46,258 bases of DNA from contig SKZV01000002.1 of assembly GCA_007127165.1 (NCBI GenBank), positions 1-46,258 on the forward strand. Reading direction: 5' to 3'. Positions 8,941 through 13,784 of this stretch are shown here, in pieces. The translations under genes and the position numbers were made by a program. Positions within the stretch are counted from its first letter, which is position 1; the number at the start of each line of letters is the position of its first letter. The DNA is from Rhodovibrio sp. Lineage in GTDB: Bacteria; Pseudomonadota; Alphaproteobacteria; Kiloniellales; Rhodovibrionaceae. Below the pieces are notes generated by a model. That model was not told the DNA's origin. It saw nothing but the letters and a program-made list of their open reading frames with translations, and made no database searches.

Positions 8941-9130
8941 GACATAACTCCGTTATCTGTTCTGCATACCCGTTGGCTAGGAGTAAAGTTCCACATTCCC
9001 GTCCTTCAACCGTTTCAATATTTTTTTTTAACATAGAATACATGCCCGTTGGCGGTAGCCGCTCCACCGGAATGGCAGGATTCCAAACATGTGAACCCGT
9101 GGCGGAGCGGCGGGAAAATGATCGGTTGAA

Positions 9131-9259: not shown

Positions 9260-10996
9260 ATGGCACGGAGCAACCCCTCGAAGAGCGCGGGTGACGGCAA
9301 AACCCGCGGCCGCAGCATCGACTCCGGCCTCGCGCTGTTTTCCCTCAACGGCCCGTTCGCACAGTACAGCGGCCCGGCCCTTGTGGCTGGACCGGCGGCG
9401 AGCGTGCTGGCGTCGAACGATGCGGCGGAGGAACTGGTCGAACTGATCAAGGGCAAGTGCCCGGCGGAGCTGCGCACGGCGCTCAACACCGCGATGGAAG
9501 GGCGCAGTGCCCAGATCAGCCCGCTGCTCTTGAACACCGGGCCGGAGGCAAGCGGCGCGGGAGACGAGGGCGTCCGCGCGCTTGAACTCACCATCCTGCC
9601 ATGGAGCGAGGGCTCGGCGGTGCTGGTGCTGGGCCGCGACGCGACGCTGGACCGGCGGCTGCGTCAGGCGCTCATCGAGTCGCAGCATCGCTACAAGGAT
9701 ATCGTCGGTCTCCTGACGCACGACTTCGCCTGGGAAACCGATGCCGAAGGACGATTCGTGTATGTCTCCGCGGACGGCGCTTTTGGCTACGCCGCCGACG
9801 ACCTTCTTGGAACCCCGGCAAGCGACCACGCGGCCGAGGCGGCGGCGGAGACAGCGCGCGCCATCTTCTCTACCCATAGCAAGCGCGCCGACCAGCCGCT
9901 GAACCTGACCAAGCGCGGCGGCGGCGAGGTCCCGGTGGTCGCCAGCGCCGTACCGTTGTTTTCCAGCGAGGGGCGCTGGACGGGCGCTCGCGGGCTATGC
10001 CGCGACATGAGCACCCGGACCGCCGCCACCCGGACCGCCGAACAGGGCCATAAGCGGGAGAAGCTGCTCTCCGCGATCCTGCGCATGTCGCGTGGATCCG
10101 CCTCTCCGCAGGCCATGCTCGATACCATCGCAGCCGGGCTGCCAACCGCGCTGGGCAGCGACGGCGCGGCGATCTATCGGCTGGTGGATGGCGCGTTCAA
10201 GCTTGCGGCACGGGCCGGTGGACCGGCTCCCGGCGCGGTGATGCACGACCTGTTGGCGCGCATCGAGGCGGGCGAACGCGATGTCGAGGGCGCCGACGAG
10301 GAGGTCGCGGTGGTCGCCCGCGCGACGACCCGCCATGAGGAGGTGAACGGCCTGCTCTATCTATGGCAGGGCCTCGGGGGGCCGTGCTGGTCGGACTACG
10401 ACCACGCGCTCCTCGGCGACATGACCGAGCAGGTGGGCGAGGCCCTGCGCCGCCTCGCGCGGCAGGAAGAACTTTCGCGCCTTTCGGCCAGCGATAGCCT
10501 CACCGGCCTTGCCAACCGCCGGAGCTTCGTCGACAGCCTCGCCAAACGCATCAGCGGCGAGGGGGCGTCGTCCCTCAAGCCCGGCAACCTGCTCTATATC
10601 GAGGCGACGAACTTCAAGCTCGTCAACGCCCGGCGCGGCCATCACGCCGGCGATCAGGTGCTGGCCGCAATGGCCCGTCTCATCCACAATCAGGTTGGGC
10701 CGGACGATCTGATCGGGCGTTTGGACGGCGACGCCTTCGCGATCTTCCTGGAAGAAGCGTCGAGCGACGCGGCGGTTCAGCGGGCGCGCAACCTCGTCAA
10801 GACCGTGCGCGAGGGATTTGGCGGCGAAACCGGCGATCCCGTTCAGCCACTGGGCATCGCCATCGGAGTCGCCGGCTACGACCCTTCCCGGCTCGAATCG
10901 GTGTCGGACCTGCTCGAGCGGGGCCATCGCGCCATGAGCCGGAAGAAGCGCAGCGGCGGCGATGCCGTCGGCCTCTGCGATCTCCGCCGGACCTAG
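9260..10996 (+). CDS. PAS-GGDEF protein with degenerate GGDEF motif
   Basis: A 578-residue soluble protein. A PAS-like domain lies at about 140-265 (YKDIVGLLTHDFAWETDAEGRFVYVS is its core), a GAF-like region at about 275-400, and a GGDEF domain at about 405-575. The GGDEF domain has LTGLANRRSF and FKLVNARRGHHAGDQVL, but the signature is DGDAF (residues 489-493) rather than GGDEF, and the metal-binding Asp of the D-x-D-x-FK motif is Glu in EATNFK. Loss of the signature Glu and first Gly argues against diguanylate cyclase activity; a role as GTP or cyclic-di-GMP sensor is possible. There is no EAL domain. The stop codon TAG is the first three bases of a palindromic repeat. A CtrA box and a hairpin lie upstream. 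Confidence 0.87.
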   Translation: MARSNPSKSAGDGKTRGRSIDSGLALFSLNGPFAQYSGPALVAGPAASVLASNDAAEELVELIKGKCPAELRTALNTAMEGRSAQISPLLLNTGPEASGAGDEGVRALELTILPWSEGSAVLVLGRDATLDRRLRQALIESQHRYKDIVGLLTHDFAWETDAEGRFVYVSADGAFGYAADDLLGTPASDHAAEAAAETARAIFSTHSKRADQPLNLTKRGGGEVPVVASAVPLFSSEGRWTGARGLCRDMSTRTAATRTAEQGHKREKLLSAILRMSRGSASPQAMLDTIAAGLPTALGSDGAAIYRLVDGAFKLAARAGGPAPGAVMHDLLARIEAGERDVEGADEEVAVVARATTRHEEVNGLLYLWQGLGGPCWSDYDHALLGDMTEQVGEALRRLARQEELSRLSASDSLTGLANRRSFVDSLAKRISGEGASSLKPGNLLYIEATNFKLVNARRGHHAGDQVLAAMARLIHNQVGPDDLIGRLDGDAFAIFLEEASSDAAVQRARNLVKTVREGFGGETGDPVQPLGIAIGVAGYDPSRLESVSDLLERGHRAMSRKKRSGGDAVGLCDLRRT

Positions 10997-11101
10997 AGCA
11001 TTTTCCGGCGAAGTGGACACCGGTTCGCCGCTAGAAAATGCGCAAAAACAAGAATCTAGAGCGCCGTTCCGATTCAATCGGAACGAAATGCGCTCTAGAG
11101 C
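10994..11101. repeat. Modular palindromic repeat, modules A and B
   Basis: A 108 bp unit starting at the TAG stop of the GGDEF gene. It matches 31213-31320 with about three mismatches. Module A (10999-11041) is a hairpin, GCATTTTC and GGCGAA pairing with TTCGCC and GAAAATGC. Module B (11059-11096) pairs GAGCGC with GCGCTC outside and GTTCCGATT with AATCGGAAC inside. Both modules are bounded by CTAGAGC or TAGAGC. Confidence 0.9.
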
Positions 11102-11146
11102 ATTTTCCGGCGAAGTGGACACCGGTTCGCCGTTTCGAAAATGATC
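11096..11146. repeat. Second copy of repeat module A
   Basis: Begins TAGAGCATTTTCCGGCGAAG and repeats the stem of module A (GGCGAA with TTCGCC, ATTTTC with GAAAAT). The distal arm differs: GTTTCGAAAATGATC instead of GCTAGAAAATGCG. It directly abuts the preceding unit, sharing the TAGAGC linker. Confidence 0.85.
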
Positions 11147-11294: not shown

Positions 11295-11322
11295 TTGAAA
11301 TAGTTCTAAGTTAGAATATGAA
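11295..11322 (+). promoter_or_regulatory. Promoter with palindromic operator for the exported sulfur-protein unit
   Basis: TTGAAA (11295-11300) and TATGAA (11317-11322) are separated by 16 bp, and the spacer contains the perfect palindrome TTCTAAGTTAGAA (11304-11316). The first gene starts 31 bp downstream. An operator between -35 and -10 is the usual arrangement for ArsR-type repressors. A related site lies before the YeeE/YedE pair at 13757-13784. Confidence 0.55.
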
Positions 11323-11353
11323 GATCTGCTAATTTAACAAATGGAGATCGTCC

Positions 11354-11809
11354 ATGTTCTCACTTCCACGCCTGCCGCTCGCCGCCGTGGCCATGGCCGC
11401 AGCCCTGGCTTTTGCCGCCCCGAACCCGGCTGTTGCGGAAGAGGACGACGGGGAATTGGACCTTCTGGTGATTCTCGGCTCCGACAGTCTGCAGACCCAG
11501 GCGATGGCGATGATTCTGGCCAACCACACGCTGGAGCGCGGTCGCACGGTGAACATCCTGCTCTGCGACGATGCGGGCGATCTTGCCCTTGAAGGAGCCG
11601 AGGCGGAGCCGGTGCAGCCGCCCGACCGCTCGCCGGTCCAACTCATGCAGATGGCGATGGAGATGGGCGCGACGGTCCAGGTGTGCGCGATCTATCTGCC
11701 GACCTCCGGGCTTGAAGAGGACGCGCTGGCCGAGGGCGTGAGCGTCGCCGCCCCGCCGGAAATCGTGGAGCTCATGGTCGATCCCACGCGCCAGCTCATG
11801 TCGTTTTGA
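11354..11809 (+). CDS. Exported DsrE-like sulfur-relay protein
   Basis: A 151-residue protein with a Sec signal peptide (positive start, hydrophobic 8-22, cleavage after AVA at 28). The mature part resembles the DsrE/TusD fold: a first strand LDLLVILGSDS, then NILLCDDAGDLAL with Cys71, VQLMQMAMEMGATVQVCAIYLP with Cys111, and a C-terminal strand region. Cys71 and Cys111 are candidates for persulfide carriage or a disulfide. GGAG is seven bases before the ATG. The rhodanese gene follows after 27 bp in the same unit, so I infer a joint periplasmic sulfur-handling role. Family assignment is by pattern only; the exact subfamily is uncertain. Confidence 0.75.
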   Translation: MFSLPRLPLAAVAMAAALAFAAPNPAVAEEDDGELDLLVILGSDSLQTQAMAMILANHTLERGRTVNILLCDDAGDLALEGAEAEPVQPPDRSPVQLMQMAMEMGATVQVCAIYLPTSGLEEDALAEGVSVAAPPEIVELMVDPTRQLMSF

Positions 11810-11836
11810 TTTCCGACCCCGGATTGGGAGAGAGCT

Positions 11837-12775
11837 ATGCGATTTCAGAACGCCTTGACCGGGTTCGGCGTCTTGACGCTTGCCGCCGCGATTGCCGGAC
11901 CGGCCGCCGCCGAGCGCCTCACCCCCGGGCCGGTGGTGGACGCGGACTGGCTGGCCGAGCATCATGAAGAGGTCCGTATCCTCGACGTACGCCGCGATAC
12001 CGCAACCTTCGAGGACGGCCGCATCCCCGGCGCGGCGCTGCTGGCCTGGGACGAGGTCCGCGCCGACCGCGACATCGAGGGCGTCGAGTTCCAGATGATC
12101 CTGCCGGAGCCGGAGATTTTCGAATCCCTGATGCGCGACGCCGGGATCGGCAACGACGATACGATCGTCATCATCTCGCCCGGAGAGGGCGCACCGGATC
12201 TCACCATCGCCGCGAGGGTCTACTGGCAACTCATGTACTTCGGCCACGAGGACATGGCGATCCTTGATGGTGGAACGCTTGGATGGGAGGAGGCGGGGCA
12301 CGAGCTCGACACCGGTGCGGTGAGCCCGGAGTCCGGCGACTTCTCGGTCACCGCGCAAAACGACGAGATTCTGGCGGACGAGGAGTTGCTGCACGCGGCC
12401 ATCGATGACCCGGATATCCAGCACATCGACAACCGGCCGCAGCACTTCTACCTGGGACTGGCGCAGGAGGATTACGTCTATGCGCTAGGCCACATTCCCG
12501 AGGCGATCAACATTCCCTTCACGCTGAACGTGCCGATGCAAGGCGCGGCCCACCTCTACGACCGGGATCAATTGATGGCGGCCTATGAAACGCTGGGCAT
12601 GAACCCGGAGAGCGAAACCCTGATCGCCTACTGCAACAGCGGCCACGTTTCCGCCCTTACCTGGTTCGTGATGAGCGAGGTCATGGGACTGAAACAGGCG
12701 CGGCTCTACGACGGGTCCATGCACGCCTGGACGCTGGACGAAGACCGCCCGGTGACGAACCCGCTGACACATTAG
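11837..12775 (+). CDS. Exported two-domain rhodanese (sulfurtransferase)
   Basis: A 312-residue protein with a signal peptide (cleavage after AAA near residue 25). It has two rhodanese domains: an inactive N-terminal one (about 33-155, VRILDVRRDTATFEDGRIPGA) and a C-terminal one (about 175-310) with Cys266 in the active-site loop YCNSGHVSA. The pattern is that of thiosulfate or 3-mercaptopyruvate sulfurtransferases; the loop CNSGHVS lacks the usual CRKGVT of either subtype, so the donor is uncertain. It acts in the periplasm, probably with the DsrE-like protein encoded just upstream. The stop TAG starts the sequence TAGAGCGCGATGA shared with intergenic repeats, and a strong terminator follows at once. 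Confidence 0.87.
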   Translation: MRFQNALTGFGVLTLAAAIAGPAAAERLTPGPVVDADWLAEHHEEVRILDVRRDTATFEDGRIPGAALLAWDEVRADRDIEGVEFQMILPEPEIFESLMRDAGIGNDDTIVIISPGEGAPDLTIAARVYWQLMYFGHEDMAILDGGTLGWEEAGHELDTGAVSPESGDFSVTAQNDEILADEELLHAAIDDPDIQHIDNRPQHFYLGLAQEDYVYALGHIPEAINIPFTLNVPMQGAAHLYDRDQLMAAYETLGMNPESETLIAYCNSGHVSALTWFVMSEVMGLKQARLYDGSMHAWTLDEDRPVTNPLTH

Positions 12776-12786
12776 AGCGCGATGAA

Positions 12787-12826
12787 CCAAGCCCGCCCGG
12801 CGGTGAGTCCCACCGGGCGGGCTTGG
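12787..12826. terminator. Strong bidirectional hairpin between convergent sulfur genes
   Basis: CCAAGCCCGCCCGGCGG pairs with CCACCGGGCGGGCTTGG (one mismatch) across a short loop. It lies 11 bp after the rhodanese stop and 20 bp after the YeeE/YedE pair's end on the other strand. There is no long T-run on either side, so it may act mainly as a transcript 3' end stabiliser or convergent barrier. Confidence 0.7.
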
Positions 12827-12846
12827 CGTTCAGGCCGGGCTGGGCG

Positions 12847-13287
12847 TTAACCTGCCGGCGCCGACGAGCGGCCGAAGAACGTGGGGCCGTAGCGCACGCA
12901 CACCATTCCGAACAGCATCGCCGCCAGAAACACCAGGGTCCCCGGCTGCAACGAAGCCGCCGAGGCCACCGCCGGACCAGGGCAATAGCCGGAGAGCCCC
13001 CAGCCCACGCCGAACAACGCCGCGCCGCCCAGGAGCCGCGAGTCCATCTCGCTGCGGGCCGGCAAGGCGAAGGTCTCCGCGAACACCGGCGCGGGCCGCC
13101 GCAGCACGAGGCGGTAGCCGATAAAGGTGGTCACCACCGCACCAAGCAGCACGAAGATCAGCGTCGGGTTCCAGTCTCCGGCGACGTCCAGGAAGCCGAC
13201 GACGATGCGCGGGTCGGTCATCCCGCCAACCGCGAGCCCGCCGCCGAACAGCAGCCCCGCACCAAGCCCGCTCATAATCTCACGCAT
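12847..13287 (-). CDS. YeeE/YedE-family sulfur transporter half (DUF6691/PmpB-like)
   Basis: A 146-residue inner-membrane protein with four hydrophobic segments. Motifs GGGLAVGGMTDPRIVVGFLDV and GWGLSGYCPGPAVAS carry the conserved Cys of the family. It is the second half of a split YeeE/YedE transporter; homologues move thiosulfate or another reduced sulfur compound. AAAGGAG seven bases before the ATG overlaps the end of the upstream partner gene (12 bp gap), so both are translated from one message. The family function is known; the exact substrate is inference. Confidence 0.85.
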   Translation of the reverse strand: MREIMSGLGAGLLFGGGLAVGGMTDPRIVVGFLDVAGDWNPTLIFVLLGAVVTTFIGYRLVLRRPAPVFAETFALPARSEMDSRLLGGAALFGVGWGLSGYCPGPAVASAASLQPGTLVFLAAMLFGMVCVRYGPTFFGRSSAPAG

Positions 13288-13299
13288 GGCTTTGCTCCT

Positions 13300-13722
13300 T
13301 TAGGCGATGAGGTGGCGGACGATAAAGACCGTCACGATGGCGGTGGCGAGGAAGGTCGCCGTCGCCGCGATGGAGCGGACGGAGAGGCGCGCCATGCCGC
13401 ACACGCCGTGCCCGCTGGTGCAGCCCGCACCCATGGTCGTGCCCACGCCGACCAAAAGGCCGGCCAGCGCCAGCACCGGCACCGAAGCGACCGTCGGTCC
13501 GAGCGGGGTGGTGCCGCTGAAGGCCCAGACCACAAGCGGTCCGAGCACCAATCCGCCGACAAAGGCCGCACGCCAGTTGCGGTCCCGGACCGGTTGTTCG
13601 TTCGGAAGCAGGCTCGCCACGATGCCGCTCACACCGGCGACGCGGCCAAGCAATGCCATTAGCATAACCGCCGAGATACCGATCATGACCCCACCGGCCA
13701 GACCGAAAAGTATGCCGTCCAT
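13300..13722 (-). CDS. YeeE/YedE-family sulfur transporter half (PmpA-like)
   Basis: A 140-residue inner-membrane protein with about four hydrophobic segments and the family hallmark GAGCTSGHGVCGMARLS, whose two cysteines are the proposed sulfur path. Together with the following gene it makes up a full YeeE/YedE-like channel. The ATG at 13722 is chosen because GAGG stands about eight bases upstream and the hydrophobic start MDGILFGLAGG follows; the in-frame extension to 13767 would add a non-conserved segment overlapping the promoter. The unit is convergent with the exported DsrE-like and rhodanese genes. Confidence 0.85.
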   Translation of the reverse strand: MDGILFGLAGGVMIGISAVMLMALLGRVAGVSGIVASLLPNEQPVRDRNWRAAFVGGLVLGPLVVWAFSGTTPLGPTVASVPVLALAGLLVGVGTTMGAGCTSGHGVCGMARLSVRSIAATATFLATAIVTVFIVRHLIA

Positions 13723-13756
13723 GGTTGCCTCACAGGATACGAAGAAACTTCGGTTG

Positions 13757-13784
13757 AACATAAGCATTTTCTAAAATAGATCAA
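13757..13784 (-). promoter_or_regulatory. Promoter with palindromic operator for the YeeE/YedE pair
   Basis: On the reverse strand TTGATC (13784-13779) and TATGTT (13762-13757) flank 16 bp. The plus-strand sequence TTCTAAAATAGAT at 13769-13781 agrees with TTCTAAGTTAGAA at 11304-11316 in 10 of 13 positions and has its own TCTA-AAA-TAGA dyad. The gene start is 34 bp downstream. Confidence 0.5.

Follow-up and report, generated by a model that had tools for sequence, protein, structure and literature searches.

Persulfide-responsive regulators of the ArsR family provide the closest described parallels to the sulfur module analysed here, which lies in a 46,258-nt stretch of Rhodovibrio sp. DNA (GenBank assembly GCA_007127165.1, contig SKZV01000002.1, positions 1 to 46,258; below, the window). 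The module consists of two converging units, one on the plus strand encoding a DsrE-like protein and a two-domain rhodanese, and one on the minus strand encoding the Sulf_transp and DUF6691 halves of a YeeE/YedE pair. A similar 13-bp element is found in the putative promoter of each unit, and it is likely that one operator is common to both. In the available portions of the work on HlyU of Vibrio cholerae, a persulfide-responsive ArsR protein, the DNA used for footprinting and anisotropy (hlyO) contains CTAAATTAG, and glutathione persulfide (GSSH) abolishes HlyU-DNA binding; the palindrome given by the authors themselves is a different, shifted one of 17 bp, TAATTCAGACTAAATTA (PMC10509353, PMC4330345). 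HlyU resembles the window system in the core CTAAATTAG of its operator and in its helix QSALSQHLAxLRxDGLV and cysteine pair, both of which recur in an ArsR protein encoded on another contig (C221) of the same genome. As far as the available text of these reports goes, the HlyU site is located far upstream and serves activation, whereas the window sites overlap the -35/-10 elements and their targets are sulfur genes; because of this overlap, repression would be expected in the window.

A second parallel is YgaV of Escherichia coli, an ArsR protein of the SqrR superfamily adjoining a rhodanese and acting as a repressor, which footprints its own ygaVP promoter near -35/-10 and whose site is related by its authors, in the accessible part of the article, to ATTC-N8-GAAT (PMC9774250). 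The ygaVP promoter also holds ACTTAATTTAGAA, which has 2 mismatches to our motif; in such an AT-rich promoter this near match could be due to chance. The YgaV helix, SASATSQHL, differs from that of the C221 protein. For NolR of Sinorhizobium, an ArsR protein homologous to C221, the excerpt available gives the consensus (A/T)TTAG-N9-A(T/A) (PMC12445080). Its half-site (A/T)TTAG matches the window core, but the second half, A(T/A), follows after 9 bp, and the targets are symbiosis genes.

The operators of SqrR/BigR and the bigR/pmp operons have the same kind of targets as the window sites (blh/pdo, a YeeE/YedE pair, rhodanese), but the operators differ in spacing and half-sites, and the bigR/pmp operons have a regulator gene in or beside them, whereas the module in the window has none. 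The transporter genes at 12847-13722 encode two short YeeE-family halves with cysteines and thereby resemble YedE1E2, which imports zero-valent sulfur, and its relatives PmpAB; as far as the accessible parts of the papers describing them go, they are not known to occur alongside an exported DsrE-rhodanese unit or the present operator (PMC10812762, PMC11582611). Our literature search found no paper combining TTAGAA, ArsR and persulfide, and among six retrieved papers that each contained five of the terms DsrE, rhodanese, YeeE, operator, repressor and thiosulfate, no title or abstract opening was about such an operator.

The sites and putative promoters of the module are as follows:
11304..11316, no strand given: putative operator site 1, TTCTAAGTTAGAA, core CTAAGTTAG, within the -35/-10 spacer
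11327..11339, in promoter 1: weaker second copy, TGCTAATTTAACA, core CTAATTTAA with 1 mismatch
11295..11322, plus strand: putative promoter of the dsrE unit (promoter 1), TTGAAA-16-TATGAA, read from the sequence, weak consensus match
13769..13781: putative operator site 2, TTCTAAAATAGAT, on the minus strand ATCTATTTTAGAA, 1 mismatch to WTCTAANTTAGAW
13757..13784, minus strand: putative promoter of the yeeE unit (promoter 2), TTGATC-16-TATGTT, read from the sequence

Both 13-mers are present where an earlier, sequence-only reading of the window had placed them, and they are identical in 10 of 13 positions. Site 1 is a perfect odd palindrome occupying most of the 16-bp spacer between TTGAAA (11295-11300) and TATGAA (11317-11322), approximately 38 bp upstream of the dsrE ATG (11354). 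In site 2 only 4 of the 6 arm positions are paired; it overlaps the end of the -35 hexamer TTGATC (13784-13779) and the 16-bp spacer that separates it from TATGTT (13762-13757), and is located about 46 bp upstream of the yeeE ATG (13722). The additional copy in promoter 1, TGCTAATTTAACA, which the earlier reading did not mention, falls approximately at the expected transcription start of the dsrE unit. A consensus promoter scan listed neither TTGAAA/TATGAA nor TTGATC/TATGTT, each being too weak, and at promoter 1 it listed a shifted pair, TTTACT/TAGAAT, instead.

As first described, the site pair is only suggestive, because a 10/13 match is common in shuffled DNA: some pair of 13-mers agreed in at least 10 of 13 positions in 38 of 60 Markov-shuffled promoter pairs (two 100-bp promoters). 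At least 10 of 13 positions agreed with the given palindrome in 2.1% of the promoter 2 shuffles, and 3.6% of those of promoter 1 contained a perfect 13-bp palindrome. The first of these figures speaks for an alternative reading, namely that look-alikes arise by chance because promoters are AT-rich within a GC-rich genome, and that no shared operator exists. Two further motifs were also compared with shuffles. The first, WTCTAANTTAGAW, which was defined partly from other genomes, was absent in exact form from all 5000 shuffles of promoter 1, and with at most 1 mismatch was found in 0.04% of the shuffles of promoter 2. The second, the core palindrome CTAANTTAG of HlyU/YgaV-like ArsR operators, comes from ArsR promoters of other genomes; it is exact at site 1, which happened in 0.12% of the promoter 1 shuffles, and has 1 mismatch at site 2, a level of agreement reached in 3.1% of the promoter 2 shuffles. 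Moreover, in the 3.37-Mb genome WTCTAANTTAGAW occurs with at most 1 mismatch in two places, which are the two promoters of the module. This supports one DNA-binding protein for both promoters, in line with the single repressor proposed by the sequence-only reading; the genome count as such is not high, and the telling point is the location of both sites in the promoters of one module. The looser pattern of that reading, TTCTAANNTAGAW, gave 8 forward and 5 reverse matches in the genome (at most 1 mismatch), compared with 6 and 11 for its backwards control, and the matches outside the module lie mostly in or between unrelated genes. A wider genome-wide regulon derived from TTCTAANNTAGAW was rejected, since there was no enrichment over the backwards control.

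The palindrome recurs before dsrE genes of other bacteria. A profile search of named genomes with a DsrE alignment yielded 80 dsrE loci, 78 of them with enough upstream DNA, while a scan of genome contigs with a single DsrE protein had produced no matches. In the fetched loci, genes and their starts were assigned only roughly, by simple ORF scoring, and transporter genes were partly miscalled, so the promoter windows are perhaps off by tens of bases. The pattern of the sequence-only type (at most 1 mismatch, 360 bp upstream) was found in 6 of the 78 loci, compared with 0.6 in shuffles and 3 for the backwards control. Exact WTCTAANTTAGAW lies within 210 bp of dsrE in four of the 78 (Marinobacterium stanieri, two Nitrincola and Neptunomonas antarctica), and allowing 1 mismatch adds a fifth promoter, that of Marinobacterium weihaiense. 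Among 180 letter-permuted palindromes, WTCTAANTTAGAW ranks first in dsrE promoters. As the two Nitrincola are closely related, and the two Marinobacterium likewise, this recurrence corresponds to about three independent lineages. In the ten genomes searched, exact WTCTAANTTAGAW was present in six, at 12 places in all, four of which are dsrE promoters; M. stanieri and N. antarctica have no exact copy other than that before dsrE.

The promoters of arsR genes gave independent access to the core. From 29 alphaproteobacterial loci and nine plasmids we assembled 38 promoters that precede C221-type arsR genes, and analysed them without use of the window motif. The most over-represented 5-mer was ATTAG (20 of 38 promoters, 6.5 in shuffles), the top 6-mer was CTAATA (14 compared with 1.7), and CTAA-N-TTAG was the commonest of the 256 palindromes of the form H-N-rc(H) with 4-base halves, being found 7 times with 0.03 expected and 2 for the next palindrome. 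None of the 14 SqrR/PDO-type promoters contained CTAA-N-TTAG. When 75 loci were sorted by recognition helix (L140, L335, L338 and L340 excluded, L341-L344 duplicating other loci), the 48 genes with helix QSALSQHL had ATTAG/CTAAT upstream in 28 cases, the full core in 6 and exact ATTC-N8-GAAT in 0, and the 27 genes with other helices in 4, 1 and 4 cases, respectively; these loci are related to one another and the counts are not independent events.

A parallel for the paired arrangement was found on a Methylobacterium oryzae plasmid (L295), where an ArsR gene of the same helix class is followed by a yeeE pair and a composite CTAAATAAGAG element stands before each (L295 2600-2919 and 3244-3558). 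The two elements are identical in 21 of 30 positions, and their best 27-mer scores 21, with a maximum of 19 in 60 shuffles. This plasmid provides a precedent for a twin operator.

Several observations weigh against a common operator bound by an HlyU/YgaV-like ArsR protein. The palindrome at site 2 is imperfect. WTCTAANTTAGAW was written after site 1 and some gammaproteobacterial sites had been seen, so that site 1 helped to define the motif, and its backwards control likewise has 2 sites in the genome. The exact core precedes only 7 of the 38 C221-type arsR genes, and linkage of operator and regulator is thus not universal in the HlyU/YgaV-like family; none of the 12 fetched loci in which yeeE has an ArsR gene in its vicinity (L329-L340) contains the exact core. 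Azospirillum genes for C221-like proteins (58-67% identical to C221), which lie near tusA (annotated in L289-L291; L292 is without annotation), had no core in the tested regions in 4 of 4 cases, which is evidence against a universal link. The C221 gene itself is on another contig, unlinked to the module, and no core is present in its promoter. Except in Modicisalibacter, the SqrR-type arsR gene of the gammaproteobacteria searched is not near dsrE, and its own promoter is without the full palindrome. Finally, the comparison within Alphaproteobacteria (with the order represented by 61 genomes and the family by three), in which upstream regions were tested with both the pattern of the sequence-only type and the later consensus, detected the 13-bp motif (at most 1 mismatch) in 0 of 20 dsrE and 0 of 53 yeeE upstream regions; the 9-bp core was found with 1 mismatch in one dsrE region and exactly in none. 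Alphaproteobacterial conservation was therefore rejected as support. The sequence-only reading had named orthologous loci lacking the palindrome as the result that would refute it: within Alphaproteobacteria this is what was found, while before dsrE the palindrome recurs in three gammaproteobacterial genera.

The missing conservation in alphaproteobacterial homologues, the similar genome counts of backwards patterns and the bare 10/13 match in shuffles all favour chance. They have to be set against the position of both genome-wide sites in the two promoters of one module, the low shuffle frequencies of a core found in other genomes and the recurrence in three genera, and on balance we regard a chance origin of the pair as unlikely.

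If a common operator is accepted, its regulator has to be sought elsewhere. The sequence-only reading stated that no regulator gene lies in the window, and this is right for the ArsR genes with a persulfide-sensor cysteine pair, of which the genome contains three, all outside it; nor was a local regulator gene seen among the genes read in the module. One of the three adjoins a DUF302 gene on contig C221, the second (C220) stands alone, and the third (C179, L104) is a SqrR-type gene located in one run with genes for an MBL-fold hydrolase (persulfide dioxygenase-like) and a SulP permease; the promoter of this run contains neither an SqrR site nor the window palindrome. The C221 protein has the recognition helix GQSALSQHLAKLRHDGL and the cysteines Cys30 and Cys96. 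Among solved structures its best matches are HlyU proteins, which share the helix QSALSQHLAxLRxDGLV and have aligned cysteines, followed by the ArsR structures 6o8k-6o8o, which we take to be SqrR, and by YgaV, NolR and BigR. At least one ArsR relative was found in each of the ten gammaproteobacterial genomes, and in eight of them (L279-L286) this relative is closest to C221 and carries the helix QSALSQHLAxLRxDGLV. The comparison of motif and helix makes an HlyU/YgaV-like ArsR protein, with C221 as the foremost candidate, the somewhat favoured binding partner.

The earlier reading had proposed a persulfide-sensing ArsR repressor of the BigR/SqrR group. The wider part of this proposal, an ArsR protein of the persulfide-sensing superfamily as candidate, is supported by the three cysteine-pair genes, but assignment to the strict SqrR/BigR group is not, since the two promoters differ from ATTC-N8-GAAT by 2 and 3 mismatches and both motif and recognition helix indicate the HlyU/YgaV-like type. 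The genome contains 17 exact ATTC-N8-GAAT sites, none within the window, and this sequence was rejected as the window motif. In relatives, 15 ArsR genes with linkage to yeeE, pdo or dsrE were compared: 9 carry ATTC-N8-GAAT with at most 1 mismatch, and none carries WTCTAANTTAGAW at the same tolerance. Elsewhere in Alphaproteobacteria, ArsR-yeeE promoters (L083, L084, L096, L154, L161, L166) have long palindromes such as ACATTCATATATTCGAATGTATGAATGT, which form a clear SqrR-type operator set.

The two remaining ArsR proteins might nevertheless be considered, with the sites as operators of C220 or C179 ArsR and classic SqrR/BigR specificity. Both have the cysteine pair, and the C179 gene belongs to a sulfur operon. 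The sequence-only reading had suggested searching homologous loci for a linked ArsR gene, and among the 80 named dsrE loci one was found beside dsrE only in Modicisalibacter; its product is closest to C220 (53%), and the arsR/dsrE intergenic region holds ATCTATTTTTTAA, which is 11/13 like site 2. Such a regulator is nonetheless improbable, given the mismatches of the window promoters to ATTC-N8-GAAT, the scarcity of ATTAG/CTAAT (4 of 27) upstream of genes with LSQQL or other helices and the lack of the palindrome in the promoters of both C179 and C220.

A protein of an unrelated family could also act at these operators. Near dsrE in the palindrome-bearing gammaproteobacterial loci, the genes read included none for a regulator. 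Another palindrome, GTGACNNNGTCAC (at most 1 mismatch), stands upstream of dsrE in 31 of the 78 named loci, nearly all from Marinobacter (e.g. in L177, about 150 bp upstream of 5001; dsrE loci L177-L256), and in exact form upstream of a DsrE-rhodanese-YeeE run in the alphaproteobacterial genome G155 (L147). It seems that the dsrE operator has been exchanged, and regulators of other families probably control dsrE genes too. On the other hand, enrichment of the core is seen in the promoters of those ArsR genes whose products have the HlyU helix and, according to the accessible HlyU reports, the core is present in the HlyU operator, and we consider an unrelated regulator quite improbable for the window.

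We therefore return to an HlyU/YgaV-like ArsR protein as the preferred regulator. The palindromes would be operators of one repressor, most likely that of contig C221, over the two arms of a module for sulfane sulfur. Its periplasmic arm would consist of an exported DsrE-like carrier and an exported rhodanese, its membrane arm of a PmpAB/YedE1E2-type importer of zero-valent sulfur. The reduced ArsR dimer would occupy CTAA-N-TTAG in the -35/-10 region and obstruct RNA polymerase; rising persulfides would lead to a sulfur bridge between Cys30 and Cys96 and to release of the dimer, and the dsrE and yeeE units would be transcribed jointly. In other words, both gene groups are probably controlled by a single sulfur sensor whose gene lies on another contig. 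The exported DsrE-rhodanese unit would thereby be connected with a persulfide sensor and a sulfur importer, and the module would gain a testable function, the handling of sulfane sulfur in the periplasm.

More tentatively, the data allow for a general operator code, to which we give slightly less than even weight. Helices of the type QS(A/P)LSQHL would correspond to CTAA-N-TTAG and other helices to ATTC-N8-GAAT; the HlyU-like class would control periplasmic DsrE/rhodanese modules in Alpha- and Gammaproteobacteria, with the twin operator described here switching the periplasmic and import arms together. Were this correct, the operator type of a persulfide-sensing ArsR protein, one of two, could be read from its recognition helix, and regulons of unlinked regulators would become predictable.

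The genes of the module are:
11354..11809, plus strand: DsrE-like protein, 151 aa, predicted to be exported (signal peptide inferred from sequence), Pfam DsrE E=2.8e-5
11837..12775, plus strand: two-domain rhodanese-like protein, 312 aa, predicted to be exported, Pfam Rhodanese E=4.2e-26
12847..13287, minus strand: YeeE/YedE partner half (DUF6691, PmpA/YedE2-like), 146 aa, Pfam DUF6691 E=1.1e-38
13300..13722, minus strand: YeeE/YedE half (PmpB/YedE1-like), 140 aa, Pfam Sulf_transp E=2.2e-8

In the DsrE-like protein, Cys71 and Cys111 are invariant in an alignment with 18 homologues, and a comparison with solved structures gave no match at E 0.1. The rhodanese-like protein has a single cysteine, Cys266, and scores below the cut-off of the NCBIfam 3-mercaptopyruvate sulfurtransferase family, as does the 140-aa YeeE/YedE half for NCBIfam TsuA. 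Both transporter halves carry cysteines (Cys101/108 and Cys102/130). DsrE-like, rhodanese and YeeE/YedE genes are grouped outside the window as well: in G155, genes for an exported DsrE, a rhodanese-like protein and a YeeE pair follow in succession on one strand. Among the 80 named dsrE loci, a YeeE homologue was present in the fetched flank of three and a homologue of the two-domain rhodanese in that of one; in several inspected loci, small exported rhodaneses follow dsrE.

Two further observations concern the DNA around the GGDEF gene upstream of dsrE. At 9026-9038, about 220 bp upstream of this gene (at 9260), TTTTAACATAGAA has one mismatch to the pattern of the sequence-only type and is probably a chance match. 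Between the GGDEF gene and dsrE, at 10993-11132, there are two identical 38-nt copies of CTAGAGCATTTTCCGGCGAAGTGGACACCGGTTCGCCG, 102 nt apart and containing inverted repeats, which look like a dispersed intergenic repeat.

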